Below are positions 189 through 36,934 of a DNA stretch of 64,000 nucleotides, one piece after another. Origin of the DNA: Agelas oroides (lineage: Eukaryota; Porifera; Demospongiae; Agelasida; Agelasidae); contig OX422196.1 of assembly GCA_949130485.1 (NCBI GenBank), positions 5,459,314-5,523,313 on the forward strand, in the 5' to 3' direction. A program made the position numbers and the translations under genes. The notes under the pieces were generated by a model that had not been told where the DNA came from, did not search any database, and saw only the letters and a list, made by a program, of their open reading frames with translations. How positions within the stretch are numbered: position 1 is the stretch's first letter; each line of letters starts with the position of its first letter.

Positions 189-272
189 TTCAGTGTTTTC
201 AAGCTCTTGTTCACTCTCAGAACATCAGCCAGTGCTGAGGCTCCCTCAGATCCAACTCTATTTGATTCGAGG
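189..272 (-). CDS. NLR gene: LRR exon 21 (class B, 84 bases)
   Basis: A single ribonuclease-inhibitor-type leucine-rich repeat lies between a splice acceptor (CTTCCACAG) and a GTAAGT donor, phase 2 at both ends. It opens LESNRVGSEGASALADVL. This is the last LRR exon inside the window. The gene very likely continues past base 1, because the exon ends with a good donor and no stop codon. Confidence 0.82.
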
Positions 273-299
273 CTGTGGAAGAGAGTACTTCAGAATTAG

Positions 300-2499
300 T
301 ACAAGCAGTAAAATATTAATTAGACATTAAGTAATGTCATCACTAACAGTCAGTGGAGTTGTTGGGAGAGAATGTGCATGAGAGAAAAAAGTAATGATTT
401 CTCAGGGTTTCACCCCTCTGTGGTTTCATATAGAGGGGGGGGGGGTTTCTCTCAGATTTCTCTCTCTCCGCCCAGAAATTTGATGCCATAATTGCCTCAA
501 CAGCTACAAGACTTAATGTATTATAGCTGAATACAATGATTCTTGTCCTTAAAAGTGTCCAGAATTTCTACAAACCCCCAGTGGGTACACTGACCCACGC
601 ATGTGCCCTTTGCATGCATCTACAATTCCCTCCTTCCCAGGAAAAAAATCCTGTATTAAACCCTGCCCTCCCACCTCCCCAACTATAACCCCATCCCTAA
701 CCCCATTCACTTGTATGAAACCCATATTCTCTCCTCACACCCTGTCCCCAACAATACCACAATCACATATACAACTAGTGAAATGCAAGGGCATTGTGAG
801 GTGAGCCTGAGTGAGTGAGTGCATATGCAAGACAAGGAGCTGCAGTCATTCTTCCCAGAAGCTACTATGGATGAAGCAATATGGTCAGCTAATAGTTAAA
901 GCGTTGAGATAGCAGGAGACACTCTACCATCCACTCTGTGTGTGAGCAGCCTAGTCTTTGTAGAAAAAGTTAGAGAATGCTGTGCAACTCTCTATGGCAG
1001 GGCCTATCTTGATGACGTGGCTCAGTGTTTACACCAGGCCTTTACAGGGATCCCAATCCGATTAAACTAATCCGGTTCATGTAAACACACTAATCCTGAT
1101 TGCAGTCTGCGTTCAACCCACATCCGGATGTAGGTTGAACCCAGATTGCAATCCTGATTTGAACAGCACGTATAAACAGCTGGCGTAGTTTGTAAGTGGA
1201 TTGGCTGCTACCTATGGAAGTTATCAATATTCATGACAAGTAGTACAGCCCTAGCCTCGTTCCCAGGCTCTCCCCACGCGTGCAAACAAAAAATCGAAGG
1301 GAAAGGGGAGAGCCTGGTAAAATTTATCACATGAGAAAAGTCATAGGTAGAGAGAACTCAATTGCATGTGGGCGAATGAATGAACTCACCCACAGTTTAA
1401 CGACAGAATATATTCATTCAGTTGCAAAAGCCTTATAGCTGACAGAATTGTACTAGGCGGCACTACGCAACATTACTTGGCAGCACAGCAAGCTATGATG
1501 AGTGTACACAGACCCGCACATTCGAAAATCTTACTCGCTTACCTGGCAAACTGACCGCTGTATATAGACCCCGGAGAATATGGCTTTCAAGGTGCTCTTA
1601 AACGCCAAGGCCAAATCTTACTCGCAAACTGACCGCTGTATATACACCCCAGAGAATATGGCTTTCAAGGTGCTCTTAAACGCCAAGGCGAACAAATGAA
1701 CTCGCCCACAGTTTAACGACAGAATATATTTGTTCGGTTGCAAAAGCCTTATAGCTGACAGAATTATACTAGGCGGCACTACGCAACATTACCTGGCAGC
1801 ACAGCAAGCTATGATGAGTGTACACAGACCCGCACATTCGAAAATCTTACTCGCTTATCTGGCAAACTGACCGCTGTATATAGACCCCGGAGAATATGGC
1901 TTTCAAGGTGCTCTTAAATGCCAAGGCGGCCCTTTCCTAGGCTATGCTCAAGTATTCTCTGTGTTCATTGTTTGAAAAAACTGCCAGAACGGGCTCCTAC
2001 TAAGGCCATTCCAAATTAAAGCCTTGTTGCAGGGGAATTAGTTCTAAAGTCACAAAAAAGCTTTCCGAATGAAAATAAGCGCATGTAGGGATGGAACCCT
2101 CAAAAACCAGCCAAACAAGATGGAAACGACACCACAACACACTCACACCATCCCTACATCTTGTGCCATTTTGCCAACTATGTTTTGTGTTTGTTACTTG
2201 TGTGCATGCATAGGAGGGTTGTGGAAGCCTTGTTGCAGGGGAATTAGTTCTATAAGTAGCCAGCTTTCACTTCACAACTTGCAGCCCTCGTACAGTAAAT
2301 CAGTAAATGTTCACGTTACAGCTACTCCTCCCAAGCGCCTCTCCCCGCCGTCTTCGCCCACATTGCTCGTGCTGGAAAGTAGTTTATACAGAGCGAAAAT
2401 GTTACTTATAGACCACATGTGGCATGCGGTTGCGTTAAACTACAGTCTAACAAACATACAGAATATGTATGACAAATAATACGTATATAAATATTATAC
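300..2499. repeat. Intronic repeats: first copy of a tandem segmental duplication
   Basis: No coding exon is seen. The stretch from about 588 to 1390 is nearly identical to 6180-6990, and a shorter third copy lies at 12940-13170. It includes a foldback unit at about 1025-1200 (two halves around ATCCGGAT-like palindromes) and a MITE beginning TAGCCTCGTTCCCAGG at 1252. From about 1371 to 1930 a 316-bp unit is tandemly repeated (CACAGTTTAA recurs at 1391 and 1707). Positions 2066-2175 resemble the 131-bp inverted-repeat arms found at 41347 and 41895. Confidence 0.7.
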
Positions 2500-2503
2500 A
2501 TAT

Positions 2504-5500
2504 GTGGCAGTCCTGGATAGAAATCAAATATTATTCCGGTCCGGTCAAAATCAAGTTATACCAATGGAACTCACCGTCGAGGCATCCCCCTACCAGAGAT
2601 CCGTTGAGACACTAGAAAAGACCTCAGGAGCAAGGGCCGCTTGGAAGGTGAGTATTATTTAGAATAGTACTCATAAGTAGCCTTGCCCTCACACCTGACT
2701 GCAGCGTTTGTTGCTTACAGTAATAGACTGCTGCAAGCTACAAACGGTGGGGTCAGAAAGTATGAGAGGGATGTTATCCAGGAGTGCATAGCGACGTACA
2801 AACGTCTTTGTGCGCTGTGACACTAGCAGTTTATGCAGCAACCTTTCCGTACTCTTCTACATTTCTATAATGTCGTTAGTTGTAACTTGTGTGAGTAGCT
2901 TAACATAGAAATGAGAGTGCAGTGATAATTTTATCCCACGGGTATTACGATAGTTTTATGCAAGAATAATTATGCAGTGTTTACAGTAGTAAGGTCCAGA
3001 AATTAACAAAGACGGCGTAAAGCTATTGCCTACTGTTGGGGTGGAGTTTAGGACATCCAGCTTTGGTTGTTTGTCCTTCACTCCATCGTGCTCGATTGCG
3101 ATGACCAGTACCATCACAACCAGGAACTGTGCACTTGCTTTGCTTTCTCTTCTTAGGTTCATCTGAGATGGTGGAAGTACATCTTGAAGCTGTTGTGTGA
3201 GAGTCAAGTACAGCTGTTCTACCCAAGGGTGGCAGGTACTCTGGTCGCCGATCAGGTGCAATGAAACGATCATACATCGTGATCATGTTGGCCATTTTTT
3301 CAGCTGATAGGTCACGTGTTTGCTCCTCCTTGTATGTGGTGACAGGCTCTCCCGGAATCCCCGGTTCAATAACATGAAGAGGTGGCTCCTTCCATGCCCC
3401 AGTGAAACAGTGCTGCCGTACCTTCATGACAATCTCTCTGTTGTGCTGCCGAACTATGAGGAGTCATGGAGCTTGCGGACCCCTGGCAAGTCTGAATATT
3501 TCTTTCCCAGTGATCTTCGCCAGGTGAGAACATGCTCTCCATCTTCTACATACATGTCAGCTGTTTGAGCACAGAGTGCTTGTAGCTCACTGATTGTGAA
3601 CCCGTCAGCTGCTTTGTACACATTGCCAATTACTGAAAACAGCCTGTCAGGTGTAAACTTGGTGTGACCGGCTATCATAAAACTGATGTGCATGTGCTCA
3701 AGCTCACCATTCCTAACCATTTCCATTGCCCAGGCAAATAGGTAGTGATTCTTGTTGGTACTGGTGGCGTTATCAAGAAAGATGGCAAGTCGGTGCAGCC
3801 ATGGGTATTGCTGGGAGATGCTGCACCAATACATGGTGAGGAATGATATTGTATGGTCTGTATTTTTCGGACCAATTTGCTCATCAAATGTGTACACAAC
3901 ACTCTTATCTTCTCGGTGGTCCACTATGCCAAAGATATCATGTGATACCTTCTGTAGGTAGTACGTTGATCCTGGTTGTTCAGTGGTTCCCCAATTAGGA
4001 ATCAGCTTTGACTGCTGGTAGTCACACTAATCACCAGTGTAAAGCAATGCTTTAGTATCATAAGCTCCTCTCTTTCTTCCTGAGTTAAACTACCCTTCTC
4101 ATCGTACTCCTTGATATCTCTCCACTGCTTTTTACACTTCTGCATACATGCCTTGTAGTATTCCCTTGCACGTGTGGCCACTACTTTATGCTCAGCAAGA
4201 TTTTCATCCAGCTGTTTCCTTTCTTCCTCCAGGCCTCTCAAGTCAGATTCAGAAGCATTGCCAGACTGTTGCAGGCGATTCTTCATGGCCTGGTTTCTGG
4301 ACAGCTCCTCCTTTAGGTTTTTGCAGGTGTCACAATAGTCGGTCATGCTGGGATGAACAGCAACCTTGGGGCGATGCTTGTCAAGCCACTCAGCTGCTGC
4401 TGTTGGACCGCAGGTACCTCTTCCTTGTTCTACTTGTGCTCTGTTGAACTCTGAAACCACTGACGCTTTAGCCTTCTGATCAAAGCCCTTCTCTCCTGGT
4501 CTAGGTGGAGCAATGCGACTGAACTTGGGAATAAAGAAGAACTGAGCACTACAGCTGCCAGCGTGCCTGCCATTTGGCTGCGAATTTAAATCCACAAACT
4601 CCAGGAAATCAGCCATCACATCAAGCTTGGAGTGATTGGAGGGACGCCCAGCAAGACCGTGACGTTCGTATGGAAACTTCACTTCAACATCCTCATCTTC
4701 ATCAAGGGACTTCCACCACATTTCAAAGGTATGCATCTCTTCATCATCTGGGCACAGTACCAAGTTTTCAAGCCTTTTCTCTGTTGCCTCTTTCTTCTTC
4801 ATGATCACTATAGGTCATTGATTCATCTGCTGCTTGATGACACGTTGCCTTTGGAGACGTTCCATGTGTATGCCTGTGAATGCTGTGATACACTCTTGGC
4901 AGAAGAGCAAGTTGCCATGTGCGTCAAGGACACTTTGACGGAGCCACTGATTTTGAGCTTGCAAAAATGAAAGACAGCTTGCTTTTGTAATATTCTTTTC
5001 TGTGATGACTGTGCATTTGTATGTCTAGCTGCATAATTATGTGTGCATTGTGCGTGTGTGTGATTGTGCTAGCCCTACACCTAGGCATGGTCAGACGAGG
5101 AGACATATTCATGATTGTGTGAGAGGCGTACCTGAGACATTTCGGTATGCCAGTCTCTGCTTCTTGGGCTGTGGGTAGCTGATCACCCTGTTACGGAGTG
5201 CCTTTGCTGGATGTCTACCCATTGCCATGAAAGCCCCAGCTAGTCCACATAGAATAGCGGGACACCCCCTATGACAATTGGCTTCCCTTGCGGTTTGTTG
5301 AGGGGTGGGACCAACTTCCGTATGGTAATTGGTTTCATTGTGCGGGAGGGGGATGGGTCGTTTATAAACTGCTCTGCTGCGCCCTGCGACAAACTTTATT
5401 TGGCGCTGCCTTTTGCGCTGACTATACACGGACACTGTTGCCATCATTCCTACCGATCGACCTGAAAGCAGCTGGTATCAACAAGACATCAGAGCTGTTT

Positions 5501-5693
5501 TTGCGTGATTGTGAGTTTGCAGTGCACTATAAACGGGTGCAGATGTGTCTAGGGTTAGCAAAGAACAAGCACTACTACGAGAGCGAGTGCGAGTGTAGGT
5601 AAGACGACGGGATAATCATACATAAACTTTAATCGCCATTATCTCAAAACGTATAACGCAGAATAATATTTGATTTCTATCCGGGACTGCCAC
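2504..5693 (-). mobile_element. DNA transposon, 3.19 kb, with about 37-bp terminal inverted repeats and ATAT target duplication
   Basis: The ends are inverted copies: GTGGCAGTCCTGGATAGAAA at 2504, and GTGGCAGTCCCGGATAGAAA read on the minus strand from 5693. ATAT flanks both sides (2500-2503 and 5694-5697). The paralogous segment near 7720-7765 carries the uninterrupted site (ATATACATAT followed by CAAAATCCACC), so the boundaries are confirmed inside this window. The element carries a three-part minus-strand transposase-like reading frame. It sits in an intron of the NLR gene, between LRR exons 20 and 21. I cannot assign it to a named superfamily with confidence. Confidence 0.85.
3023..4808 (-). 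pseudogene. Transposase-like protein (DUF7869-type core) in three frames, probably broken
   Basis: Three minus-strand segments read in order. The first (4808-4002, 268 residues) begins MIMKKKEATEKR and holds a CDTCKNLKEEL zinc-binding-like motif and a charged helical stretch. The second (3924-3454) holds FLDNATSTNKNHY and MIAGHTKFTPDRLF, which resemble the conserved core of transposon-borne proteins of the DUF7869 kind (family recalled, not searched). The third (3427-3023) ends with a cysteine/histidine cluster, CTVPGCDGTGH, like a C2HC finger. Homologous sequence appears to run on between segments in another frame near 4023 and near 3456, so I infer two frameshifts; short introns are the alternative. 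The coding lies inside the element with inverted ends at 2504 and 5693, which makes a transposon protein the best reading. Confidence 0.6.
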
Positions 5694-5945
5694 ATATGAA
5701 AATCCACCGTTCAACTCACTAGTGTGGGGCTCACTCAGGCTCGCCCCAATTAATGAGACAGTAAGTAATTAACACAGACATATTATGTTGTCACTAACAG
5801 TCAGTGGAGTTAATGTGCAGGAGAGAAAATAATATTACCTACCGTAGCTAATAATATTACCTACTATAGCCAATAGTATATCAGTCTGTACATACTGTTT
5901 GATCCTCACATTTCCTGATAGCAAGACACTCAGGTTACAACTTAC

Positions 5946-6029
5946 TTCAGTTCTTCCAGTGACTGGTTATGTTGCAGTGCTCTGGCCAGAGCTGTGGCTC
6001 CAGTGGCAGTCAGACCATTGTCTCTGAGG
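5946..6029 (-). CDS. NLR gene: LRR exon 20 (class A, 84 bases)
   Basis: One 28-residue LRR, beginning LRDNGLTATGATALARAL, phase 2 in and out. Acceptor ...CACTGCAG and donor GTAAG. The asparagine-ladder position (LRDN) and the GA.ALA.AL helix are intact. Confidence 0.85.
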
Positions 6030-6179
6030 CTGCAGTGGAGTACAATCAGACAGACACACTTGAGTTAGATCCGCATAAACAAATCCCATGTTTTTGTTGC
6101 TATGGCAATGACAACTCCTCATCAGCAAGGTGCCAACGACATTTTAAGCGTCCACAATTCAAATCTTGTACATCATGTG

Positions 6180-7010: not shown

Positions 7011-7059
7011 CTCTCATCAAACTAAAATCCCAACCTTTCACTTATTATTTGGTACTTAC

Positions 7060-7143
7060 TTCAGTGTTTTCAAGCTCTTGTTCACTCTCAGAACATCAGC
7101 CAGTGCCGAGGCTCCCTCAGACCCAATTATATTTGATTCGAGG
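7060..7143 (-). CDS. NLR gene: LRR exon 19 (class B, 84 bases)
   Basis: Begins LESNIIGSEGASALADVL. Phase 2 at both ends, CTTCCACAG acceptor, GTAAGT donor. It pairs with class A exon 18 as an A-B unit. Confidence 0.85.
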
Positions 7144-7969: not shown

Positions 7970-8053
7970 TTCAGTTCTTCCAGTGACTTGTTATGTTGCA
8001 GTGCTGTGGCCAGAGCTTTGGCTCCAGTGGCAGTCAGACCATTGTATCTGAGG
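7970..8053 (-). CDS. NLR gene: LRR exon 18 (class A, 84 bases)
   Basis: Begins LRYNGLTATGAKALATAL. Phase 2 and intact splice sites. Its surroundings (7750-8230) repeat 5700-6180, which hold exon 20, so exons 18 and 20 are products of one duplication. Confidence 0.85.
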
Positions 8054-9700: not shown

Positions 9701-9796
9701 ACCAATGTTTTGAAGTTTGTGATCACTCTCGGATCAGCCAGTGCAGTAGCTCCCTCATCCCCAATTCTAGTCCACTTGTATTTATCCCAATCAAGA
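9701..9796 (-). CDS. NLR gene: LRR exon 17 (class C, 96 bases)
   Basis: A longer 32-residue LRR opening LDWDKYKWTRIGDEGATALA. Acceptor TTTATTCAG, donor GTAAGT, phase 2. Class C has an extra aromatic/charged stretch (DKYKW) before the usual glycine turn. It lies 189 bases from class A exon 16. Confidence 0.82.
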
Positions 9797-9985: not shown

Positions 9986-10069
9986 TTCAGTACTTCCAGT
10001 GACTTGTTATGTTGCAGTGCTCTGGCCAGAGCTGTGGCTCCAGTGGCAGTCAGACTATTGTCTCTAAGG
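9986..10069 (-). CDS. NLR gene: LRR exon 16 (class A, 84 bases)
   Basis: Begins LRDNSLTATGATALARAL, phase 2, intact GT-AG borders. It is the upstream partner of class C exon 17. Confidence 0.85.
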
Positions 10070-14069: not shown

Positions 14070-14165
14070 TCCAATGTTTTGAAGTTTTTGATCACTCTTG
14101 GATCAGCCAGTGCAGTAGCTTCCTCATCTCCAATTCCAGTCCACTTGTACTTATCCATATCAAGA
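14070..14165 (-). CDS. NLR gene: LRR exon 15 (class C, 96 bases)
   Basis: Opens LDMDKYKWTGIGDEEATALA, 32 residues, phase 2, acceptor TTATTCAG. Paired with class A exon 14 at 14365. Confidence 0.84.
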
Positions 14166-14364: not shown

Positions 14365-14448
14365 TTCAGTTCTTCCAGTGACTTGTTATGTTGCAGTGCT
14401 ATGGCCAGAGTTATGGCTCCAGTAGCAGTCAGATCATTGTCTCTGAGG
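14365..14448 (-). CDS. NLR gene: LRR exon 14 (class A, 84 bases)
   Basis: Opens LRDNDLTATGAITLAIAL, phase 2, donor GTGAG. It differs from other class A exons in helix residues, so the copies have diverged. Confidence 0.84.
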
Positions 14449-15587: not shown

Positions 15588-15683
15588 TCCAATGTTTTGA
15601 AGTTTTTGATCACTCTCGGATCAGCCAGTACAGTAGCTTCCTCATCCCCAATTCCAGTCCACTGGTAATCAGTCCAATCAAGA
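15588..15683 (-). CDS. NLR gene: LRR exon 13 (class C, 96 bases)
   Basis: Opens LDWTDYQWTGIGDEEATVLA, phase 2, intact borders. It is the most divergent class C copy, with DYQW in place of KYKW. Confidence 0.82.
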
Positions 15684-15851: not shown

Positions 15852-15935
15852 TTCAGTACTTCCAGTGACTTGTTATGTTGGAGTGCTCTGGCCAGAGTTA
15901 TCACCCCAGTGGCAGTCAGACCATTGTCACTGAGG
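15852..15935 (-). CDS. NLR gene: LRR exon 12 (class A, 84 bases)
   Basis: Opens LSDNGLTATGVITLARAL, phase 2. Partner of class C exon 13. The 15.5-16.35 kb segment is a tandem copy of 14.0-14.9 kb. Confidence 0.83.
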
Positions 15936-17639: not shown

Positions 17640-20600
17640 TCGGTCAGTGATCACCCTGTGCGGTCACCGATCGGAGTGGTACGGTCTGTGATCACCCCGT
17701 GCGGTCACCAATCGGAGTGGTGCGGTCTGTGATCTACCTGTGCGGTCACCGATCAAGGTTGTGCGGTCTGTGATCTACCTGTGCGGTCACCGATCGAGGT
17801 TGTGCGGTCTGTGATCTACCTGTGCGGTCACCGATCGAGGTTGTGTGGTCTGTGATCACCCTGTGCGGTCACCGATCGGAGTGGTGCGGTCTGTGATCTA
17901 CCTGTGCGGTCACCGATCAAGGTTGTGCGGTCTGTGATCTACCTGTGCGGTCACCGATCAAGGTTGTGCGGTCTGTGATCACCCTGTGCGGTCACCGATC
18001 GGAGTGGTGCGGTCTGTGATCTACCTGTGCGGTCACCGATCGAGGTTATGCGGTCTGTGATCTACCTGTGCAGTCACCGATCGAGGTTGTGCGGTCTGTG
18101 ATCTACCTGTGCGGTCACCGATCAAGGTTGTGCGGTCTGTGATCTACCTGTGCGGTCACCGATCGAGGTTGTGCGGTCTGTGATCTACCTGTGCGGTCAC
18201 CGATCGAGGTTGTGCGGTCTGTGATCTACCTGTGCGGTCACCGATCGAGGTTGTGTGGTCTGTGATCACCCTGTGCGGTCACCGATCGGAGTGGTGCGGT
18301 CTGTGATCTACCTGTGCGGTCACCGATCGAGGTTGTGCGGTCTGTGATCTACCTGTGCAGTCACCGATCGAGGTTGTGCGGTCTGTGATCTACCTGTGCG
18401 GTCACCGATCAAGGTTGTGCGGTCTGTGATCTACCTGTGCGGTCACCGATCGAGGTTGTGCGGTCTGTGATCTACCTGTGCGGTCACCGATCGAGGTTGT
18501 GTGGTCTGTGATCACCCTGTGCGGTCACCGATCGGAGTGGTGCGGTCTGTGATCTACCTGTGCGGTCACCGATCGAGGTTGTGCGGTCTGTGATCTACCT
18601 GTGCGGTCACCGATCGAGGTTGTGCGGTCTGTGATCTACCTGTGCGGTCACCGATCGAGGTTGTGCGGTCTGTGATCTACCTGTGCGGTCACCGATTGAG
18701 GTTGTGTGGTCTGTGATCACCCTGTGCGGTCACCGATCGGAGTGGTGCGGTCTGTGATCTACCTGTGTGGTCACCGATCGAGGTTGTGCGGTCTGTGATC
18801 TACCAGTGCGGTCACCGATCGAGGTTGTACGGTCTGTGATCTACCTGTGCGGTCACTGATCGGTGTGGTGCGGTCACCGATCGGAGTGCTGCGGTCTGTG
18901 ATCTACCTGTGCGGTCACCGATCGGTGTGGTGCGGTCTGTGATCACCCTGTGCGGACACCGATCACTTTGTGCGGTCACCGATCTGCTCTGTGCGGTCAC
19001 CGATCTTAGCGTGCGGTCACCGATCTTAGCGTGCGCTCACCGATCTGCCCTGTGCGGTGACCGATCACTCAGTGCGCTCACCGATCTGCCCTGTGAGGTC
19101 ACCGATCACTCAGTGCGATCACCGATCTGCCCTGTGCGGTCACCGATCTTAGCGTGCGCTCACCGATCTGCCCTGTGCGGTCACCGATCACTCTGTGCGG
19201 TCACCGAGCAGGGTAGATCGGTGAGCGCACACTAAGATCGGTGACCGCACAGGTAGATCACAGACCGCAGCACTCCGATCGGTGACCGCACCACACCGAT
19301 CAGTGACCGCACAGGTAGATCACAGACCGTACAACCTCGATCGGTGACCGCACAGGTAGATCACAGACCGCACAACCTCGATCGGTGACCACACAGGTAG
19401 ATCACAGACCGTACAACCTCGATCGGTGACCGCACAGGTAGATCACAGACCGCACAACCTCGATCGGTGACCACACAGGTAGATCACAGACCGCACCACT
19501 CCGATCGGTGACCGCACAGGGTGATCACAGACCACACAACCTCAATCGGTGACCGCACAGGTAGATCACAGACCGCACAACCTCGATCGGTGACCGCACA
19601 GGTAGATCACAGACCGCACAACCTCGATCGGTGACCGCACAGGTAGATCACAGACCGCACAACCTCGATCGGTGACCGCACAGGTAGATCACAGACCGCA
19701 CCACTCCGATCGGTGACCGCACAGGGTGATCACAGACCACACAACCTCGATCGGTGACCGCACAGGTAGATCACAGACCGCACAACCTCGATCGGTGACC
19801 GCACAGGTAGATCACAGACCGCACAACCTTGATCGGTGACCGCACAGGTAGATCACAGACCGCACAACCTCGATCGGTGACCGCACAGGTAGATCACAGA
19901 CCGCACAACCTCGATCGGTGACCGCACAGGTAGATCACAGACCGCACCACTCCGATCGGTGACCGCACAGGGTGATCACAGACCACACAACCTCGATCGG
20001 TGACCGCACAGGTAGATCACAGACCGCACAACCTCGATCGGTGACCGCACAGGTAGATCACAGACCGCACAACCTCGATCGGTGACCGCACAGGTAGATC
20101 ACAGACCGCACAACCTTGATCGGTGACCGCACAGGTAGATCACAGACCGCACAACCTCGATCGGTGACTGCACAGGTAGATCACAGACCGCATAACCTCG
20201 ATCGGTGACCGCACAGGTAGATCACAGACCGCACCACTCCGATCGGTGACCGCACAGGGTGATCACAGACCGCACAACCTTGATCGGTGACCGCACAGGT
20301 AGATCACAGACCGCACAACCTTGATCGGTGACCGCACAGGTAGATCACAGACCGCACCACTCCGATCGGTGACCGCACAGGGTGATCACAGACCACACAA
20401 CCTCGATCGGTGACCGCACAGGTAGATCACAGACCGCACAACCTCGATCGGTGACCGCACAGGTAGATCACAGACCGCACAACCTTGATCGGTGACCGCA
20501 CAGGTAGATCACAGACCGCACCACTCCGATTGGTGACCGCACGGGGTGATCACAGACCGTACCACTCCGATCGGTGACCGCACAGGTAGATCACAGACCG

Positions 20601-20690
20601 CACCACTCCGATCGGTGACCGCACGGGGTGATCACAGACCGCACCACTCCGATCGGTGACCGCACAGGGTGATCACTGACCGATCGTGCT
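17640..20690. repeat. 41-bp satellite in two opposed arrays
   Basis: The unit is two related halves of 20 and 21 bp, each with GTGCGGTC followed by a GATC-containing box. Variant units (GTGTGGTCTGTGATCACCC, and a CCGATTGAGG variant at 18693) recur at multiples of 41 bp. The rarer variants appear in mirror order in the right arm, for example GAGG/CCTC with the same T change at 19540. Reading frames across the array are by-products of the repeat and are not called as genes. Confidence 0.95.
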
Positions 20691-22814: not shown

Positions 22815-22910
22815 TCCAATGTTTTGAAGTTCTTGATCACTCTCGGATCAGCCAGTGCAGTAGCTCCCTCATCCCCAATTCCAGTCCACTTGTATTTATC
22901 CATATCAAGA
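22815..22910 (-). CDS. NLR gene: LRR exon 11 (class C, 96 bases)
   Basis: Opens LDMDKYKWTGIGDEGATALA. Phase 2, acceptor TTATTCAG, donor GTAAGT. It is separated from its class A partner (exon 10, 25106) by about 2.2 kb because mobile elements have inserted between them. Confidence 0.85.
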
Positions 22911-25105: not shown

Positions 25106-25189
25106 TTCAGTACTTCCAGTGACTTGTTATGTTGCAGTGCTCTGGCCAGAGCTGTGGCTCCAGTGGCAGTCAGACCATTGTCTCTGAGG
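25106..25189 (-). CDS. NLR gene: LRR exon 10 (class A, 84 bases)
   Basis: Opens LRDNGLTATGATALARAL and closes with QHNKSLEVL. Acceptor CCACTGCAG, donor GTGAGC, phase 2. It is the clearest reference copy of class A. Confidence 0.88.
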
Positions 25190-26289: not shown

Positions 26290-26373
26290 TTCAGTGTTTT
26301 CAAGCTCTTGTTCACTCTCAGAACATCAGCCAGTGCCGAGGCTCCCTCAGATCCAATTTCATTCGATCCGAGG
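26290..26373 (-). CDS. NLR gene: LRR exon 9 (class B, 84 bases)
   Basis: Opens LGSNEIGSEGASALADVL. Phase 2, donor GTAACT, acceptor CTTCCACAG. It is the last transcribed member of the run of six class B exons. Confidence 0.84.
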
Positions 26374-26619
26374 CTGTGGAAGAGAGTACTTCAGAATTAG
26401 TACAAGCAGTAAAAATATTAACGAGACAGTAAGTAATTAACATAGACATGTGTCACCACTAACAGTCTGAAAAAATATGGTATGAGCTTAACAGCCCATG
26501 TTGACAGCAATGTACCCTATGTTCAACAGCTCTCATCAAACTAAAATCCTAGCCTTTTATGGCATGTGTTCAATAAATCCAAGCCTTTCAGTTATAAATG
26601 GTTATTATTTGGTAGTTAC

Positions 26620-26703
26620 TTCAGTGTTTTCAAGCTCTTGTTCACTCTCAGGACATCAGCCAGTGCTGAGGCTCCCTCAGATCCAATTTCATTTGATCCG
26701 AGG
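26620..26703 (-). CDS. NLR gene: LRR exon 8 (class B, 84 bases)
   Basis: Opens LGSNEIGSEGASALADVL, almost identical to exon 9; the spacing to exon 9 is 330 bases. The intron upstream is slightly shortened next to the acceptor, but CTTCCACAG is kept. Confidence 0.84.
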
Positions 26704-26909
26704 CTGTGGAAGAGTACTTCAGAATTAGTACAAGCAGTAAAAATATTAACGAGACAGTAAGTAATTAACATAGACATGTGTCACCACTAACAGTCTGAAA
26801 AAATATGGTATGAGCTTAACAGCCCAAGTTGACTGCAATATAAACTATGTTCAACAGCTCTCATCAAACTAAAATCCCAATCTTTTACTTAGAGCTATTT
26901 GGCAGTTAC

Positions 26910-26993
26910 TTCAGTGTTTTCAAGCTCTTGTTCACTCTCAGAACATCAGCCAGTGCCAAGGCTCCCTCAGATCCAATTTCATTTGATCCGAGG
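26910..26993 (-). CDS. NLR gene: LRR exon 7 (class B, 84 bases)
   Basis: Opens LGSNEIGSEGALALADVL. One serine in the helix is replaced by leucine, shared with exon 6. Phase 2. Confidence 0.84.
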
Positions 26994-27193
26994 CTGTGGA
27001 AGAGAGTACTTCAGAATTAGTACAAGCAGTAAAAATATTAATGAGACAGTAAGTAATTAACATAGACATATGTCACCACTAACAGTCTGAAAAAATATGG
27101 TAACAGCCCAAGTTGACTGCAATACAAACTATGTTCAACAGCTCTCATCAAACTAAAATCCCAATCTTTTACTTAGAGCTATTTGGTAGTTAC

Positions 27194-27277
27194 TTCAGTG
27201 TTTTCAAGCTCTTGTTCACTCTCAGAACATCAGCCAGTGCCAAGGCTCCCTCAGATCCAATTTCATTTGATCCGAGG
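27194..27277 (-). CDS. NLR gene: LRR exon 6 (class B, 84 bases)
   Basis: Same predicted start as exon 7 (LGSNEIGSEGALALADVL), exactly 284 bases from it, with nearly identical introns. A very recent tandem copy. Confidence 0.85.
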
Positions 27278-27477
27278 CTGTGGAAGAGAGTACTTCAGAA
27301 TTAGTACAAGCAGTAAAAATATTAATGAGACAGTAAGTAATTAACATAGACATATGTCACCACTAACAGTCTGAAAAAATATGGTAACAGCCCAAGTTGA
27401 CTGCAATACAAACTATGTTCAACAGCTCTCATCAAACTAAAATCCCAATCTTTTACTTAGAGCTATTTGGTAGTTAC

Positions 27478-27561
27478 TTCAGTGTTTTCAAGCTCTTGTT
27501 CACTCTCAGAACATCAGCCAGTGCCGAGGCTCCCTCAGATCCAATTTTATTTAATTCGAGG
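27478..27561 (-). CDS. NLR gene: LRR exon 5 (class B, 84 bases)
   Basis: Opens LELNKIGSEGASALADVL, 284 bases from exon 6. The changes cluster in the first seven residues, the strand-side positions of the repeat. Confidence 0.85.
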
Positions 27562-27761
27562 CTGTGGAAGAGAGTACTTCAGAATTAGTACAAGCAGTAA
27601 AAATATTAATGAGACAGTAAGTAATTAACATAGACATATGTCACCACTAACAGTCTGAAAAAATATGGTAACAGCCCAAGTTGACTGCAATACAAACTAT
27701 GTTCAACAGCTCTCATCAAACTAAAATCCCAATCTTTTACTTAGAGCTATTTGGTAGTTAC

Positions 27762-27845
27762 TTCAGTGTTTTCAAGCTCTTGTTCACTCTCAGAACATCA
27801 GCCAGTGCCGAGGCTCCCTCAGATTCAATTTTATTTAATTCGAGG
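27762..27845 (-). CDS. NLR gene: LRR exon 4 (class B, 84 bases)
   Basis: Opens LELNKIESEGASALADVL, 284 bases from exon 5 and differing from it by one residue (G to E). Phase 2, intact borders. Confidence 0.85.
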
Positions 27846-28170: not shown

Positions 28171-28254
28171 TTCAGTGTTTTTAAGCTCTGGTTCACTCTT
28201 AGAGCATCAGCCAGTGCAGTAGCTCCCTCAGATACAATTTCATTCCCTCTGAGA
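28171..28254 (-). CDS. NLR gene: LRR exon 3 (class B-like, 84 bases)
   Basis: Opens LRGNEIVSEGATALADAL and ends RVNQSLKTL. It mixes a class A-like start (LRGN, TTGCAG acceptor) with a class B-like end, so it may be a diverged or recombinant copy. Phase 2. Confidence 0.82.
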
Positions 28255-29987: not shown

Positions 29988-30071
29988 TTCAATTCTTCCA
30001 GTGACTTGTTATGGTGCAGTGCTCTGGCCAGAGCTGTAGCTCCAGTGTCAGTCAGACCATTGTTTCTGAGG
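29988..30071 (-). CDS. NLR gene: LRR exon 2 (class A, 84 bases)
   Basis: Opens LRNNGLTDTGATALARAL, phase 2, donor GTAAG. The nearest class A exon to the NACHT domain that is complete. Confidence 0.84.
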
Positions 30072-30291
30072 CTGCAGTGGGGTACAATCAGACATGAACA
30101 CACGAGTTACATCCACATCAAACAAATTCCACATTTCTGTTGTTACCATAAGAGTCAGGGATACCGGTACAGGCTTCAATTGGAAATTATATCGTACCTC
30201 GCACACAGATTCCCACAAACAGCGTATGGTGGCTAGTCAATTGCCATTGTTGTTGCCATAGCAACAGAACATGGGCTTACCACTACATTTA

Positions 30292-30593
30292 ACTTCATTC
30301 CCAGTCCTGGTTGAAAAATCAGAAAAAAGGCCTAGTATTCACTGTTTGTACAGTCATGCAATTTTGCCAACATTCCCATGTCACCTCTGTGTGCTATGAT
30401 GGTCAGGCGTATATCGCTGTATATTTGTATGTAAGATCAGGATTTAATCTAGATTTTCATCTGCCTGCTAGCAACTTGGCCATTATTTCACATAATTCAA
30501 CATGAGCCTTATGCACAAGTTAAGAACATGTGCAAGCAGTGGATACCAGGCCCTTTTCTCTGATTTTCAAACAGGCCTGGGAACAAGACTATA
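30292..30593. mobile_element. Imperfect palindromic MITE beside a CA microsatellite
   Basis: Inverted ends: CATTCCCAGTCCTGGTTGAA...CAGAAAAAAGGCCT at the left and AGGCCCTTTTCTCTG...CAGGCCTGGGAACAAGA at the right. Same terminal theme (CCCAGG) as the TAGCCTCGTTCCCAGG family. Confidence 0.55.
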
Positions 30594-30596
30594 TAC

Positions 30597-30830
<234 letters not shown>

Positions 30831-31023
30831 TACATACACTATACTGACAACCCACTTATGATTCCATATTCAATCGAACTTTGCAAGTGTCAATACAGTG
30901 AGGAAAGTGATAATAGTTACTAGCACCAGTCTCCCAAGTTCAAGGAGGGCCGATCATTGTCACCCAGGTCAACTGTACATGTCCCTGTATGTACATGGAA
31001 GTAGCTACTTAGTAGTTACATAC

Positions 31024-31107
31024 TTCAGTTTCTGCAAGCTCTGGTTCACTCTCAGAGCATCAGCCAGTGCAGTGGCTCCCTCAGATCCAATACTATTTGA
31101 TTCGAGG
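31024..31107 (-). CDS. NLR gene: LRR exon 1 (class B, 84 bases)
   Basis: Opens LESNSIGSEGATALADAL and ends RVNQSLQKL, with a GTATGT donor and phase 2. It is the first intact LRR exon after the NACHT exon, 1.6 kb downstream of it in transcription order. Confidence 0.82.
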
Positions 31108-31271
31108 CTGTGGAAGAGAGTACTTCAGAATTAGTGTAAGTAGAGACACAAAATAAATGGGACTGTGAGTCTGACTTAACATAATGTTATGTCACGACAA
31201 AGAGTCAGTGGAGTGGAAGAAATAACTGTATTTACCGGAGCCGCATGTACTGTTCAACCCTCACAACTTAC

Positions 31272-31346
31272 TTCAGTTCTTCCAGTGACGTGTTACATTG
31301 CAGAGCTCTGGCCACAGCTATGGCTCCAGTAGCAGTCAGACGGAGG
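31272..31346 (-). pseudogene. Degenerate class A LRR exon (75 bases)
   Basis: Aligns with class A exons but has lost nine bases after the acceptor, removing the RDN residues of the asparagine ladder. The acceptor is GAAG rather than GCAG. The frame is still open, so inclusion is possible, but decay is likelier. A further scrap of the same type is at about 31800-31850. Confidence 0.6.
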
Positions 31347-31359
31347 CTTCAGTGGGGTA

Positions 31360-32700
31360 TAAACAGACAAACACATTCGAGTTAGATCCACACTAACTAT
31401 GTTTCTGTTGCTACGGCAATGACCTGAGCATCAGAGAATCACAGCATGGGCTTCCATCGGTATTTGTTGAGGCCATAACTCAATCCCATACGTCAGATCC
31501 CCACAAACAGCGTCTCAGTATGGGGGCTAGTCAATTGGCATTGTTGTTGCCACAGCAACAGAATGTGGACTTACCACTACTTTTGCATACTGTATAGCTG
31601 AATTTTCAAGGGATTAAACTTTCATGAATGATCAAATAAAAAAGCTTCTATCAAACATTTTCGCAGATGACATAATCTACCAGGTATTATATATAGTGTG
31701 CACGTGCATGCTCATTCATATTTACGTATGTCTTGACACTTATGCAGCTAGCTTCGCCATGCAATCACACATATTTAAGAGATGGAGTTTCAAGCCAAAA
31801 CAGAGCTCTGGCCACAGCTATGACTCTAATAGCAATCAGATGGAGGCTGCAGTGGGTACAATTAGACACAAACACACTCGAGTTAGATCCACACTAACCA
31901 TCTTTGTTTTTTTTTGCTACGCATCACAGTGATAACTACTCTGCCTTGTACTCCTGTGAGATTTTGGTGTAACTTCCCTCAGTCATTTTCTGGGTGGTTA
32001 GTGCAATTCTTGTTCACAGCAGTGATGACTCTGGAATCTACAAAGATCCTGATGGATCAGGAAGATCGTTAGCTGGATGAAGGTATCTATACCAGCTGCC
32101 AAGTAGTCAACTATGTACGTAGTTGCTCATGGTCATCAAGATTGGGTGTGGCTTACTAGAATGGGCAGGGCAAATGTTAACCATTGCTGGAATATATTTT
32201 CACGGAAGACCTTTTACCTGCGAAATGCACAAAATTAAAGTACCAACAAAAATTTAATGGAAATGCCATGTTTCTGTTGCTACAACTACTTACTACTAAT
32301 GGTGAATGATAAACATAACCTATGATGCTGATGCAAATAGGTAAATCCCAAAAACATGGATCCAGAGATGGGAACAAGGTCACTTCCACTAAACAGTTGT
32401 GGAATTTTGGCTAGCCATCATTAGGCATAATGTGAAATGAGTCCTCCTAGGATGTAGTATGAACATTACTACTGCATGTACTACTAACAAACAGTATCCA
32501 ATTTGTGAACATATCAGTTGATGCATGGGTACAGTACAACCTTCCACTATGTCTTCTTCATTTAACTTGCTTGATATACTGCAAAGAAGTGTTACTTGAG
32601 TGTCTTCCACTATGCCTATTATCTATCTATGGAGTACAGTACAGGGAGTGACCGTAACTGGATTAATCACAAGAGGCTGAGAATTCATTGACCAATACTA
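31360..32700. other. NLR intron between NACHT and LRR exons
   Basis: Holds the LRR scrap near 31800 and otherwise unremarkable A/T-rich sequence. No splice-bounded exon is recognised. Confidence 0.45.
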
Positions 32701-32708
32701 TAGCTTAC

Positions 32709-34233
32709 CAAAGATGCTTAATGCCGCTGTGATCATCACGCCAAGCACCTGCAACAAGAAATTTTGAGAATTCCCTCATAGCTTGTGCTCCTAAGAAGCA
32801 TTTGTTGAGGACCACTACATGGGGATTTTGCATGTGTGGAAGACAATGAAGAATACTGTGGATGTCACGTGTGGTGACAACTGCACTGCTAACTTCAGTT
32901 GTTAGGGAAGAAAGATCTGTTTGCTGTTCAGTTGTCACATATTCAGTTTCAGTTAAACAATCCGTTAATCTTAAAGCATTTCCTTTATAGTACTGTTTTA
33001 ACAGATTCGTAATGTTGGTTTCGGCTCCAAGACCAGCAATGAAACACCAGAAATAAGCAAATTCGTCCTTGTACCTCAGTGATAGTTTCTTGCGATCAGG
33101 ATTGAGGAGAGTTTCCACTGCCAAACAAAAATCTTGAAGATAAGGTACAGTGGAATTACGATCTGCTAGTTCACAGTTACACTCCTCATTATCATAGATT
33201 AGTGATTTGCCAATTGTTGCAATTACGTTTCCTGAGTCCTCAATGGTTTTCCTGCCACTTTCCAGTAAAATATTCCTGAACTGAGACTGCAGTGGATCAG
33301 TACTAAACATTTCATAGAGCTTCCCCTTGTGCCATTCATTGACCAACACTACCAGAGAGGTGTACAGTTGGGTCCATGTCACAGGAAGGTCATCATATGA
33401 AATGCGAGCAAAAACATACATGGTTCCAATCAGGTAACTAGGTGATGAAACAAGTGATTCCACTTGTGGGTTTCCAGCAAGATAACTCAAGAAATCAGAT
33501 GCTCTCTTATCGTCAAAATGTTGAATAACTTCCTTTCCAATTTGTTGATTAGTTAATCCAAGAATCTCAAACTGGATGAAGTTACCTTCAATAAAATGTG
33601 AACATGTAGTGGCAACAACTACTGTGGATTCGGAGAAATTGCTGCGGCCAGACAAAATACTGAACAGCACATCTCCATACGGTTCCAGAGGTGATTGAAA
33701 GAGATATTCATGGCAAAAACCGTCAAGTATAAAAAGGACTCCCTTTCCTTTCTCTGCTTTAATCCAGCGACAAATCGTTTTGCTTACTACAGTGCTGCCT
33801 TTGAGCTGTCTGTCAATCAATTCTTGTATTGAGCAACCTTGGTGCAGATCCCAGATGTTAACATAAAGGATTAGTGAAAATCCTCTCAATGCATAATGTT
33901 TAGCCCAGCTGCGGCATAATCTAGATAATAACTCTGTTTTACCACATCCTGGGGGCCCTTTGACAACAAACACACGGCTTTCTCTTTGTGCAATTTTGTT
34001 CAGCATAGACTTCATGGACAGCTCCTGGATCTCAGAGGGAAACTGGTCCATCATCTCATAGCAGGAAGTATAGTCCAGTTGAGACAAAAGAGGAGCATTT
34101 TGGACAATTCCAAACCTTCGATTAAAGTTTGATAGTTTAGGAGCACCAGACCATAGCTTCCTTTTTGAAAATGAGTCTTTCAGAAACTTCTGTCGTAAAA
34201 ACTCACAGGCTCCTTGGACTTCAGTGATACTAC
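32709..34233 (-). CDS. NLR gene: NACHT NTPase exon
   Basis: A 1525-base exon (phase 1 in, phase 2 out) encoding about 508 residues. The Walker A motif GPPGCGKT (about 33958-33935) is followed by a Walker B-like VLFILDGF (about 33740), then a region that fits the arginine-rich/winged-helix part of NACHT proteins (VATTCSHFI, FEILGLT, PSYLIGTMYVF). This is the nucleotide-driven switch domain of NLR sensors, which typically oligomerise after the LRR region senses a trigger (family knowledge). The Walker B segment reads LDGFCHE rather than the common LDGLDE, so catalytic strength is uncertain. Borders: acceptor AACTTAG, donor GTAAGC. The C-terminal end (VLNKCFLGAQAMREFSKFL) already looks like a first LRR. 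Its phase change from 1 to 2 lets it join the phase-2 LRR exons. Confidence 0.9.
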
Positions 34234-34297
34234 CTAAGTTAAGGAAAAGCACACACCATAAACAGGGATGCAGTTAACACAAACTATTGTTACTGAC

Positions 34298-36493
34298 CTT
34301 GTAAATGTATCAGTAGTTCTTCAGCATTGTGAAGGTGTCCATGTCTTAACAAAAATTCAAGAAGACCCTCATTAGTAGCATTGTTTACATTCACTCTCTT
34401 CCAGCACAGAAGGGCCATATACTTCTGTTCCTCTTCATTTCCAGTCTCTTCTAACTCCTTCTCACTGATCCCAAGATATGAAGCCAAGTCTTTCCAGCTT
34501 CGCATCTTCCTTGAAAATATCTTTAGGAAATCATTTGAACAAATTTCTTGGAGCTTGCCTGCGGGAGTGCTTGTGATGAGATCATTCAAATGACGGACAG
34601 CTTCTCCACTTGTCTGTTTCATTTCTTCTTCAGGAATGAAGTGTTCCAGTCCAAGGACCTTGACTCTCCTCCTGGTGTCTTCTCCGACAGTTGCTACAGT
34701 CTGTACACTGTATAGCTTCTGAATGTTGTCTGCAACTGTGTCATAGTCAACCTCTAACCTTTGGACACCTCTTCCAGCTAAGATTTCCAAGTCTTCCTCA
34801 CAGAGTTCCCCAAATATTCCACTGATAGATTTCGGAATGAGGAATGTGAACTGGTGAGTGGTGAATCCTCCTTCCCAGTGGGCATAAATGATGAAGTCTT
34901 GATCAATTCCTGTGGCCTTCTCCACTGCTTCTCTCACTACTTGTATGTCACCCAGTGTCCATTCAATCGCACTACCACCACCACGGGTCACTCGCAGCTT
35001 TTGAAATTCTTTAAATTCTGAGATTTCTTCCTCGGACAGAGGGTCTGGGAGAGTGGAGAGTTTAGTATGAGAGGGAAACCTACTTTTGTACAACTGAAAT
35101 ATAGATGTCATCTCAATGTCAAAAGCATCAGCAACCTTCCAAAGAACACCCCAGTTAAGGAAGTTTAGGACTTGGGGCTGCAAAATGGTGAATATTTGTG
35201 GGACAGACTCTGCATTTTTCAGGATCCTGGGATCAATGTACCGAGCTTCTGGATATAAAACATGGGTGAAACTTTGCAAGAATTTTTTCAGCTGGATAAC
35301 TTCTACTGTTTTTTTCCCTACTTCAGAAATGAGTTGCTGAAATTCTGAGTTGTAATGGGCTGTTTTGGGGGAGTCATGAGTTAAGGGGACTCGCTTCATT
35401 CCAGCAGTAGTGTAGGTGGATTTATCAGTTTTAGCATCTGGCTGTGGTATATCAGTCTTGGACTCTGCCAGTGATGTACTAGTCTTGGACTCTGCCAGTG
35501 ATATACTGGTCTTGGACACTGCCAGCGATGTACCAGTTTTGGACACTGCCAGTGATGTACCAGTTTTGGACACTGCCAGTGATGTACCAGTTTTGGACTC
35601 TGCCAGCGATGTATCAGTCTTGGACTCTGCCAGCGATGTACCAGTCTTGGTCTCTAGCTGTGATATATCAGTCTTGGACTGGGCCTGCAATGAATCAGCC
35701 TTGGTCTCTGTCTGCAATGTGTCAGTTGTAGTCTCTGGCTGTGATATATCAGTCTTGGACTCTGCTTGCAAAGATTGCAGGTCTATGACTACATCGGCAT
35801 TCACTTCAACTCCGAGGATGCCATGATCAGCTAGGTCCCTTTGATTGTCTGCACTGAGACTACTGAAGCAACTGACCACAGTTTCTGGGATGAGAAAAGT
35901 AAATAAGACACACCCTGACATCTGATTGGAGTAGACAATCATACTCTCATCAACTCGTGTGTTTCTACTGATGGTTTGTTGCACCCTTTTGACATCCTCC
36001 ATAGTGGTTGTGTGAACATCCCCTTCAGACTTGACTTTCACCTTCTTGGTTCCACTAAATGCATCTATCTCTTCATCTGATAATGGGTCACACATCCGTT
36101 TGAGTGGTTTCTTTTGAGGAAAGTTATCTTCATACTGTTTCAGGAGTGTTTTTGATTGCTCATTTCCAAACATATTGACAATTATCCTCAAGAGATCAGT
36201 GTGCATGTAGTGGATGTAACATGGAAAGAGTGCCTCAATGATCTCTCTTGGAGTTCTACAGTGCTCATAGAGCTTACTGTCAATATATCGTTGACGGGTG
36301 TGAGGATGGCACAAGAATTTCAAAAAGTCTTTTAGACTCTCCACATCAGCTGATTCATTGAGCAGTTTAACTACCTTGGTAAGCATGATGGAAAATTGCA
36401 TAGGTAAATCCAATTCTTCATAGCTGATGGATTTCTCAGATTCTGCAGTTTTAAATGTAGGATTGGTCGATTTCCCAGATTCTGCAGTTTTAA
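34298..36493 (-). CDS. NLR gene: duplicated-domain plus death-domain exon
   Basis: A 2196-base exon, phase 1 on both sides (acceptor CCCTACAG, donor GTCAGT), encoding about 732 residues. It contains, in order: a domain of roughly 190 residues (from LNESADVESLKDFLKFL to the PETVVSCF region); a low-complexity stretch of a 9-residue repeat (SKTGTSLAV type); a second copy of the first domain (from VEVIQLKKFLQSF; shared features are a YID motif, a PLSDEEI/PLSEEEI motif and FTFLIP); and near the C-terminus a death-domain-like six-helix segment (WKDLASYLGISEKELE, then NEGLLEFLLRHGHLHNAEEL). I do not recognise the duplicated domain by name. Death domains pass signals by binding other death domains, so this N-terminal part is probably the signalling arm. 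Confidence 0.85.
35445..35770 (-). repeat. 27-bp coding repeat (9-residue SKT-type)
   Basis: The period is exactly 27 bases in the central copies (CACTGCCAGTGATGTACCAG read on the plus strand), encoding SLAVSKTGT and variants. The outer copies are diverged (SQPETTTDT, SQLETKTGT), so the array grew from its centre. Confidence 0.88.
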
Positions 36494-36640
36494 CTGTAGG
36501 GAAAAACAAAAGTGAATCATATTTCAAACAAAGGAAACCTACTTTACAACAGTAACTTGCTGACATTTTAATTTGATGCACATATACTCATTCAGAAAAT
36601 GTCTACAGCATCTTGATGATATAAATGGTATGTAAATTAC

Positions 36641-36934
36641 CTGTATGTCTCTTTGCTATGGTCTCTGCTAAAGCAGTATTATTCCCTCCAGCTGGATCAT
36701 CCACAGCCTCCACCAGCATTCTCCAGGTGGGATGACCACATCTCTCATAGTTGTAAGACTTCTGGAGCCACTTGGTCAGCACCATTCGAAGACAGCGCTT
36801 GCAATCATCACCTTTAGTTTCTTTGCGGATAGTTTCTTCATGTAATATTGGCAAGTTGAGAGCACAGCAAATGTCTGACCATCTGGGAGCTAAGTTGAGC
36901 ACTTCTTTATACACTTCAAATAGGTTATCGTCAG
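36641..36934 (-). CDS. NLR gene: N-terminal death-domain exon
   Basis: A 294-base exon, phase 1 in and out, between TTTTTCCAG and GTAATT. The encoded 97 residues look like a death-domain fold: LAPRWSDICCALNLP, then MVLTKWLQKSYNYERCGHPT and WRMLVEAV. With the second death domain of the next exon this gives a two-death-domain NLR. No start codon lies in the exon, so at least one further 5' exon is needed; I could not find it. The hAT element 370 bases upstream may lie in that intron. Confidence 0.8.

Follow-up and report, generated by a model that had tools for sequence, protein, structure and literature searches.

The window analysed here, a stretch of 64,000 nucleotides from the sponge Agelas oroides, carries on its minus strand an NLR-type locus in which a NACHT exon is followed by 17 LRR exons of 84 bp and four of 96 bp. 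All 21 LRR exons reported by the earlier note are present, each open, in phase 2-2, and with AG before and GT after. The features, read along the minus strand, are the following.

36641-36934, minus strand: N-terminal exon, 294 bp, phase 1-1, with AG/GT borders; its likeness to a death fold is by eye only
34298-36493, minus strand: large exon with two copies of a ~210-aa domain, a 27-bp coding minisatellite between them, then a Death domain (open reading frame, Pfam, self-comparison, borders)
32709-34233, minus strand: NACHT exon (Pfam NACHT E=1.6e-11, borders) with the motif GPPGCGKT, which we take to be P-loop-like
31801-31840, minus strand: dead B-cassette remnant (found by blastn, with the 21 exons as queries)
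31272-31346, minus strand: B cassette of 75 bp, 9 bases short, in frame, open, AG/GT (blastn with the 21 exons)
31024-31107, minus strand: A cassette, 84 bp
29988-30071, minus strand: B cassette, 84 bp
28171-28254, minus strand: A cassette, 84 bp
27762-27845, minus strand: A cassette, 84 bp, first in a run of six
27478-27561, minus strand: A cassette, 84 bp, second in the run
27194-27277, minus strand: A cassette, 84 bp, third in the run
26910-26993, minus strand: A cassette, 84 bp, fourth in the run
26620-26703, minus strand: A cassette, 84 bp, fifth in the run
26290-26373, minus strand: A cassette, 84 bp, sixth in the run, outside the TRF array
25106-25189, minus strand: B cassette, 84 bp
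22815-22910, minus strand: C cassette, 96 bp
15852-15935, minus strand: B cassette, 84 bp
15588-15683, minus strand: C cassette, 96 bp
14365-14448, minus strand: B cassette, 84 bp
14070-14165, minus strand: C cassette, 96 bp
9986-10069, minus strand: B cassette, 84 bp
9701-9796, minus strand: C cassette, 96 bp
7970-8053, minus strand: B cassette, 84 bp
7060-7143, minus strand: A cassette, 84 bp
5946-6029, minus strand: B cassette, 84 bp
189-272, minus strand: A cassette, 84 bp; no further cassette follows within the window, although the gene goes on
C14:5442343-5442426 (host contig coordinates): furthest intact cassette of the gene, type B

The NACHT exon is open over 507 codons (Pfam 44.8 bits against a cut-off of 26.7), has NLRC4 as its top PDB sequence match (1.5e-6), and ends in phase 2 within an LRR motif (IKHL), so that its 3' border matches the phase of the downstream cassettes. 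In the large exon, the Death domain is recognized by Pfam at E=9.7e-9 (35.7 bits, cut-off 22.6); the two ~210-aa copies, 28% identical to each other (self-comparison E=5e-29), are TRADD-N-like at a Pfam E value of 2.6e-4, weaker than the family cut-off. The predicted product would thus be a member of the NLRs, with a NACHT NTPase, C-terminal LRRs and an N-terminal signalling domain (Death) all present. Pfam gave no match to the N-terminal exon at E<=0.1 and no ROC or COR domain in the two long exons at E<=0.01, and the window yielded nothing from Rfam at gathering scores or from ARAGORN. The start codon and the last coding exon were not found; when the end of this gene was compared with that of a paralogue (C8, described below) in search of a 3' terminal exon, the common stretches were interrupted by stops in one of the two and look non-coding.

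Cassettes were detected by simply scanning for open segments of the form AG-84-GT or AG-96-GT, and then by blastn with the 21 exons. The scan also yields many non-LRR segments, and it is their LRR sequence and mutual similarity, not their openness, that make the cassettes real. Blastn recovered all 21 and only two more places in the window (31272-31346 and 31801-31840). Past the left window edge there is another dead remnant, and the next 17 kb hold a further nine intact cassettes, bringing the total behind one NACHT to at least 31 LRR cassettes; the earlier count of "at least 21" was right for those 21 but missed the 75-bp cassette, the remnant at 31801-31840 and the nine beyond the edge. Every cassette length is a multiple of 3 and every phase 2-2, in agreement with the proposal that the cassettes are frame-neutral.

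The cassettes fall into three types, A (84 bp), B (84 bp) and C (a 96-bp form of A), arranged such that B alternates with A or C, an order that the earlier note does not mention. Alternation holds at 21 of 29 junctions of this gene (C14; shuffle mean 14.4, P=0.007), and at 21 of 24 (P=0.0003) when the run of six is reduced to a single cassette. Two paralogous genes, C4 and C8, follow the same scheme, with alternation at 12/12 and 17/19 junctions, respectively (P=0.001 for each). The C8 gene, with 20 intact cassettes and one broken, contains a two-exon unit repeated four times in tandem at a spacing of 791-819 bp, and five of the six similar A copies at 26290-27845 in this gene lie in a 284-bp tandem array (97% matching, TRF). 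Of 28 A cassettes, 27 have their nearest neighbour in their own gene (10.0 in shuffles), as do 18.3 of 28 B cassettes (9.4 in shuffles). Two dead remnants and one shortened copy in this gene are further signs of turnover. This array and its two sister arrays show recent one-exon and two-exon duplications and a few dead copies; the alternation suggests that the arrays expand by units of two exons together with local single-exon runs. The alternating order and the pairwise duplication point to a pair of LRRs, rather than any subset, as the natural module in many cases. Across the host assembly (259 Mb), pattern matches number 198 for the B type and 359 for the A type (557 together). The host mtDNA carries atp9, three CAU tRNAs (not told apart), an Arg-UCU tRNA and a TGA inside cox1, and is of demosponge type; the criteria described for demosponge mtDNA are atp9, trnI(cau), trnR(ucu) and a minimally modified code (PMC2444032).

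In gene order, the product would comprise the N-terminal exon, the duplicated TRADD-N-like domain, Death, NACHT and the LRRs, the last most simply forming one long, constitutively spliced solenoid. The array could then serve as a germline workshop in which the ligand-facing surface of a cytoplasmic sensor is continually rebuilt. Cassette skipping would be optional; it is possible because no skip shifts the frame. A rather unlikely alternative is that splicing is combinatorial, each transcript taking a different subset of cassettes, so that a single gene would yield numerous receptors in the manner of a Dscam-like NLR. Every intact cassette is symmetric, and donors differ among the 30 cassettes of the gene: seven A cassettes (the run of six and one more) have gtaact or gtaacc (U1 duplex energy -3.3), one A cassette has gtacta (-3.1), and the remaining 22 range from -4.3 to -8.0. 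Alternative splicing of phase-2 LRR exons is described in brown algae (PMC11378527), as is skipping of an LRR exon in human NLRP3 (PMC6642158). However, symmetry is common among LRR exons and alone does not prove skipping (PMC6642158), an NLRX cluster with 15-30 LRRs in the sponge Dysidea avara fits long constitutive domains (PMC12909245), and the retained alternating order suggests that order matters. Somewhat more doubtful still is the extension that a set of NLR loci, several with tens of cassettes, would make up a splicing-based repertoire of which cells or individuals express different subsets; if true, this would put an intracellular equivalent of Dscam close to the root of the animals. 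The simpler reading would be a single long LRR domain that is spliced constitutively and owes its diversity to the germline.

It is improbable that the locus comprises several genes, with the distal cassettes belonging to another or dead gene. The missing 3' end and introns of up to 7.1 kb would allow it, but tblastn with this and other host NACHT frames detected no other NACHT within the surrounding 124 kb, bar a weak opposite-strand match at the far left end, and none in the ~50 kb from the NACHT to the last intact cassette. Strand and phase are constant throughout, and frame and splice sites are preserved in the four most distal intact cassettes (A, B, A, B). The earlier assignment of the cassettes to a single gene is thus supported.

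The array might instead be mostly a neutral by-product, its copies spread by recent unequal crossing-over and its clean frames a sign of youth, and the 97% matching array and the dead remnants point in that direction. For the five A copies inside that array, cleanness alone indeed says little, because the array is a 97% matching tandem one, and to this extent the weight that the earlier note gave to clean copies has to be reduced. However, a neutral simulation left 2.6 of 30 copies intact (maximum 15 in 1000 runs), whereas all 30 are intact in the real gene. Among alignable copies of this gene, the flanks are 10-17% different with many indels, while the cassettes retain length, frame and splice sites; indels number 3.0-7.9 per 100 bp in the flanks and 0-0.84 (aligner-placed) in the equal-length exons. 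Scaffold codons have a dN/dS of 0.17 (permutation P=0.003) and by parsimony a nonsynonymous to synonymous ratio of 1:8 (P=0.001), the scaffold and exposed classes having been chosen after the per-site table had been viewed. We therefore disfavour the neutral explanation and consider it quite improbable: selection maintains the LRR scaffold as well as the reading frame, length and splice sites of the cassettes, as the earlier note had supposed for the cassettes as wholes.

Whole-exon dN/dS is 0.93 (A), 0.75 (B) and 0.46 (C) over the three genes and 1.16, 1.24 and 0.89, respectively, within this gene; values near 1 would resemble relaxed constraint if the scaffold codons were not split off. For exposed codons, with synonymous changes counted at exposed codons only, dN/dS is 2.78 in this gene and 1.15 over the three genes. 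By parsimony, the exposed codons of this gene show 29 nonsynonymous to 3 synonymous changes against an expected 4.1:1 (P=0.10), and those of the three genes 66.5 to 14.5, which is neutral (P=0.5). These values are only suggestive of faster change, or diversification, at the exposed beta-strand codons. The comparison of synonymous and nonsynonymous changes between copies, which the earlier note had proposed, thus establishes a constrained scaffold but not firmly a diversifying exposed face.

That cassettes are joined somatically, after the manner of lamprey VLR with its incomplete germline gene, is extremely improbable, and this reading was set aside: the likeness is a formal one of LRR cassette stocks only, and DNA joining is unneeded because the germline cassettes are already complete exons with splice sites, ordered behind the NACHT.

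We are fairly confident that the locus is an NLR-type gene with at least 31 symmetric, phase-2, one-LRR exons of two alternating kinds, kept by selection, probably rebuilt in the germline and most simply spliced constitutively. It offers a concrete locus for how a cytoplasmic sensor might be diversified in an animal without adaptive immunity. The principle, in which exons are gained and lost while selection holds the LRR scaffold fixed, is already known in ciliates and brown algae; here it is seen in true NLRs from an animal that branched off early and whose genome contains hundreds of cassettes. New here is the two-type alternation of cassettes, and growth by two-exon units seems likely. Among the listed papers on LRR-exon arrays and NLRs (few subscription journals covered), no title or abstract opening mentions LRR-cassette arrays for sponge NLRs; we claim no priority.

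Among known systems, the zebrafish NLR family shares a variable LRR number with the sponge array, and the authors of that study assign variable recognition to the B30.2 domain and not to the LRRs (PMC4852459). In Dysidea avara, 25 NLRD genes share the DEATH-NACHT-LRR architecture of the Agelas gene, and NLRX clusters have up to 15-30 LRRs; the words exon, intron, isoform and alternative splicing are absent from the main text of that paper (PMC12909245). Tetrahymena genes with 90-bp LRR exons form equal-length arrays with phase-2 introns and recurrent clonal expansion, but in a ciliate and apparently without NACHT context (PMC6564038). Brown-algal LRR-ROCO genes resemble the sponge gene in having one phase-2 LRR exon per repeat, with exon shuffling and positively selected concave-face sites, and differ in their 72-bp exons, in ROC-COR instead of NACHT, and in the 16 exons of the example given; splice variants, hypothetical in the sponge gene, are documented for them (PMC11378527). 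As in the Dscam-like class, arrays of homologous, predicted frame-neutral exons are present in the sponge gene. In NOD/NLRC genes it is normal for an 84-bp exon to encode a single LRR, as the earlier note had stated, and phase-2 LRR arrays occur in brown algae and Tetrahymena. In human NOD/NLRC genes, mostly one 28-aa LRR occupies each exon, frame-preserving and with the border at a fixed point of the beta-strand, and in human NLRP genes 28- and 29-aa LRRs alternate (PMC6642158); since such exons are usual there and the copy number is partly recent local duplication, the locus had been made out to be more unusual than it is. The sponge gene differs from human NOD/NLRC/NLRP in having at least 31 cassettes after a single NACHT, some of them recent copies that are almost identical, in placing its two alternating kinds on separate exons, and in the hundreds of copies across the genome.

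Scanning the minus strand of the window for open phase-2 segments with AG/GT borders, we recovered 17 LRR exons of 84 bp and four of 96 bp between positions 189 and 31107, exactly the counts of the earlier note. Because the scan also yields many unrelated open segments, we take the LRR pattern and mutual similarity as evidence, and not openness alone. These cassettes, each a one-LRR exon of phase 2-2, fall into types A and B (84 bp) and C (a 96-bp form of A). Used as queries against the window, the 21 exons all found themselves, along with two places that the earlier note had overlooked, which lie next to the NACHT exon:

Features beside the cassette array
31272-31346, minus strand: B-type cassette of 75 bp, in frame
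31801-31840, minus strand: dead cassette remnant
32709-34233, minus strand: NACHT exon (Pfam NACHT, E=1.6e-11; best PDB sequence match NLRC4)

Upstream of the NACHT exon, a large exon on the same strand carries a Death domain (Pfam, E=9.7e-9), so that the proposed order of Death domain, NACHT and LRR on one strand stands. This exon holds a domain of ~210 aa twice (28% identity, E=5e-29 in self-comparison), with a weak TRADD-N-like match under the Pfam cut-off; between both copies, at 35450-35765, lies a coding 27-bp minisatellite of 11.7 copies, repeating a SKTGTSLAE-like peptide. In a 294-bp exon further upstream no Pfam domain was recognised, and the start codon of the gene was not located. 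At its end the NACHT exon breaks off in phase 2 within the pattern L-x-x-L-x-L, and any cassette can therefore complete the repeat that it begins.

Left of the window, which is C14:5459314-5523313 of the assembly, the array continues with nine more intact cassettes and one dead remnant, the outermost intact copy lying at C14:5442343-5442426. Blastn across the 124 kb around the gene found 33 copies, 31 of them intact (26 of 84 bp, four of 96 bp, one of 75 bp) over ~48 kb, raising the earlier "at least 21". That they belong to one NLR gene agrees with tblastn of the 124 kb, using the gene's own NACHT and 11 frames from other loci (three of only ~100 aa and little use): besides this NACHT, the sole match was weak, on the opposite strand and ~23 kb farther out than the outermost intact cassette, at the extreme left end. 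That left neighbour (L012:3-1628, plus strand) is an open frame truncated at the end of the analysed sequence; it has LRR-like repeats as well as hydrophobic stretches. A protein search of the assembly (259.3 Mb, 141 contigs) with the NACHT exon gave no second place on the same contig among the matches listed; a NACHT family search, with 105 of 314 candidates scored, missed even the NACHT of this gene and so says little on gene number.

Several elements lie in or near the gene. Transposon-like fragments (3023-4814, minus) occupy the intron between B5946 and A189, including a piece (3454-4026, minus) that matches DUF7869 and, below cut-off, a DDE transposase; the long intron from C22815 to B15852 contains a 41-bp satellite (17641-20682) whose two arms face each other, the left-array consensus being the reverse complement of the right. 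Just upstream of the first recognised exon is a hAT-type transposase ORF (37465-39645, plus) in which DUF4371 and hAT dimerisation domains are recognised; the ORF before it matches a zinc finger weakly, under the cut-off. Farther out, two frames gave no Pfam match at E<=0.01: a 300-aa frame (59072-59974, minus) and an ORF (50073-50480, minus) with LAGDVETNPGP, which we take to be a 2A-like motif; a LINE-like element may begin with the latter.

At least 21 other places in the assembly resemble the NACHT exon, their best pieces being 60-70% identical to it (eight each on C8 and C9, two on C16, one each on C4, C20 and C21), with additional ones at 31-37%. Those on C9 (~0.66-4.56 Mb) match at 68-70% over about residues 5-335, and no A- or B-type cassettes appear on C9 among the matches listed. 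With up to three mismatches, a B-type 30-mer matched 198 places and an A-type 35-mer 359 (reversed-pattern controls, 0); these are pattern matches, intactness having been examined in three genes, those on C14, C4 and C8. Behind the NACHT at 5113288 on C16, before the next found NACHT at 4952354, lie at least 28 B and 13 A places among the matches listed (40 in one listing, and 100 in each of three others with totals of 198, 359 and 175). Blastn identified 13 intact cassettes in the C4 gene, and 20 plus one broken in the C8 gene; tblastn added apparent first cassettes of another type, one and two, respectively. Since the C4 stretch stops 111 bases past its last cassette, that array may continue.

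In all three genes B alternates with A or C. Leaving out the 75-bp copy, dead remnants and the other first-cassette type, 21 of 29 junctions alternate in the C14 gene (P=0.007), 12 of 12 in C4 (P=0.001) and 17 of 19 in C8 (P=0.001); with five of a run of six removed, C14 gives 21 of 24 (25 cassettes, P=0.0003). Four near-identical tandem two-exon units in C8 (spacing 791-819 bp), a single-exon run of 284-bp period in C14 and nearest relatives within the same gene (A 27/28, B 18.3/28) fit growth by unequal exchange of one-exon and two-exon units with local homogenisation, the exchange itself being inferred.

Selection keeps the cassettes clean, as had been suggested. Among alignable pairs within the C14 gene (A 70/91, B 56/66, C 5/6; others dropped), the proportion of differing sites is 0.105-0.166 in the flanks and 0.075-0.078 in the cassettes. 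Per 100 bp, the flanks carry 3.0-7.9 indels and the cassettes 0-0.84, the latter being aligner-placed in equal-length exons (the same artefact reaches 1.54 within C8 for A exons and, across genes, 2.22 for A pairs). In 1000 runs of a neutral simulation, along trees built on the divergence of the flanks with distances limited to 0.20, 2.6 of 30 copies stayed intact (maximum 15), against 30 observed, these being the intact 84/96-bp copies among the 33 found, without the 75-bp copy and two remnants; when the indel rate was cut to a quarter, all copies of a type stayed intact in a fraction of 0 (A), 0.002 (B) and 0.017 (C) of cases.

Whole-exon dN/dS over the three genes was 0.93 (A), 0.75 (B) and 0.46 (C). 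When codons were split by the LRR consensus, eight scaffold positions gave 0.17 and the remainder 1.58 in the C14 gene (permutation P=0.003), and 0.18 and 1.10 over three genes (P=0.0004). The five exposed beta-strand positions of the C14 gene reached 2.78 with their own dS (1.15 over three genes), and 3.0 with dS from all codons (bootstrap 2.16-4.65; three genes 1.75, 1.42-2.15). By parsimony, 29 nonsynonymous changes at exposed codons of C14 compare with 21 synonymous in all codons (P=0.001) or 3 at the same codons (P=0.10), and the ratio is neutral over three genes. Positions were named after the whole-exon per-site results were seen, and the copies are related, with possible sequence exchange. 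The synonymous/nonsynonymous comparison proposed earlier thus provides firm sequence support for purifying selection on the scaffold, but diversification of the exposed face is suggestive.

The array is intact, symmetric and alternating, with recent duplications, a few dead copies and a constrained scaffold. It probably encodes an LRR solenoid in which cassette turnover in the germline remodels the ligand face. Cassette skipping, if it occurs, would leave the frame unchanged, and the weak donors of eight A cassettes, judged by U1 pairing, hint that skipping may be favoured. Of the 30 donors, 28 start gtaa or gtga, so that in phase 2 their cassettes, if left unspliced, run straight into a stop; this holds generally for phase-2 introns whose donors start in this way.

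The 22,436-base contig C141 (20.0 kb examined) is mitochondrial, with atp9 (PF00137, E=4.7e-13) and with TGA codons within cox1. Its cox1 lies in two pieces ~1.2 kb apart (L036:3853-6733), and the interrupting sequence contains an open frame whose motifs, LAGLIEGDG- and LAGFLDADG-like, are presumably as in a homing-endonuclease intron. A second cox1-like match on another small contig (C107:16176-16808), lacking internal TGA, might come from a microbial symbiont. ARAGORN found 22 tRNAs on C141, including Arg-UCU and three with CAU. Since these features accord with demosponge mtDNA as described (extra atp9, trnI(cau), trnR(ucu), minimally derived code; PMC2444032), the host is taken as a demosponge.

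Among known systems, most NOD and NLRC genes carry 28-aa LRRs, one per exon (PMC6642158), bearing out the 84-base layout stated earlier. Brown-algal ROCO genes are described as having arrays of phase-2 LRR exons, with exon shuffling, splicing variants and concave-face sites under selection (PMC11378527), and Tetrahymena as having 90-bp phase-2 LRR exons by the tens of thousands (PMC6564038). The main text of the D. avara NLR paper lacks the words exon, intron and isoform and the phrase alternative splicing (PMC12909245). The C14 gene shares one LRR per exon with NOD/NLRC genes, and phase-2 arrays with brown algae and Tetrahymena; the principle is already described there, and the array is a variant of it.
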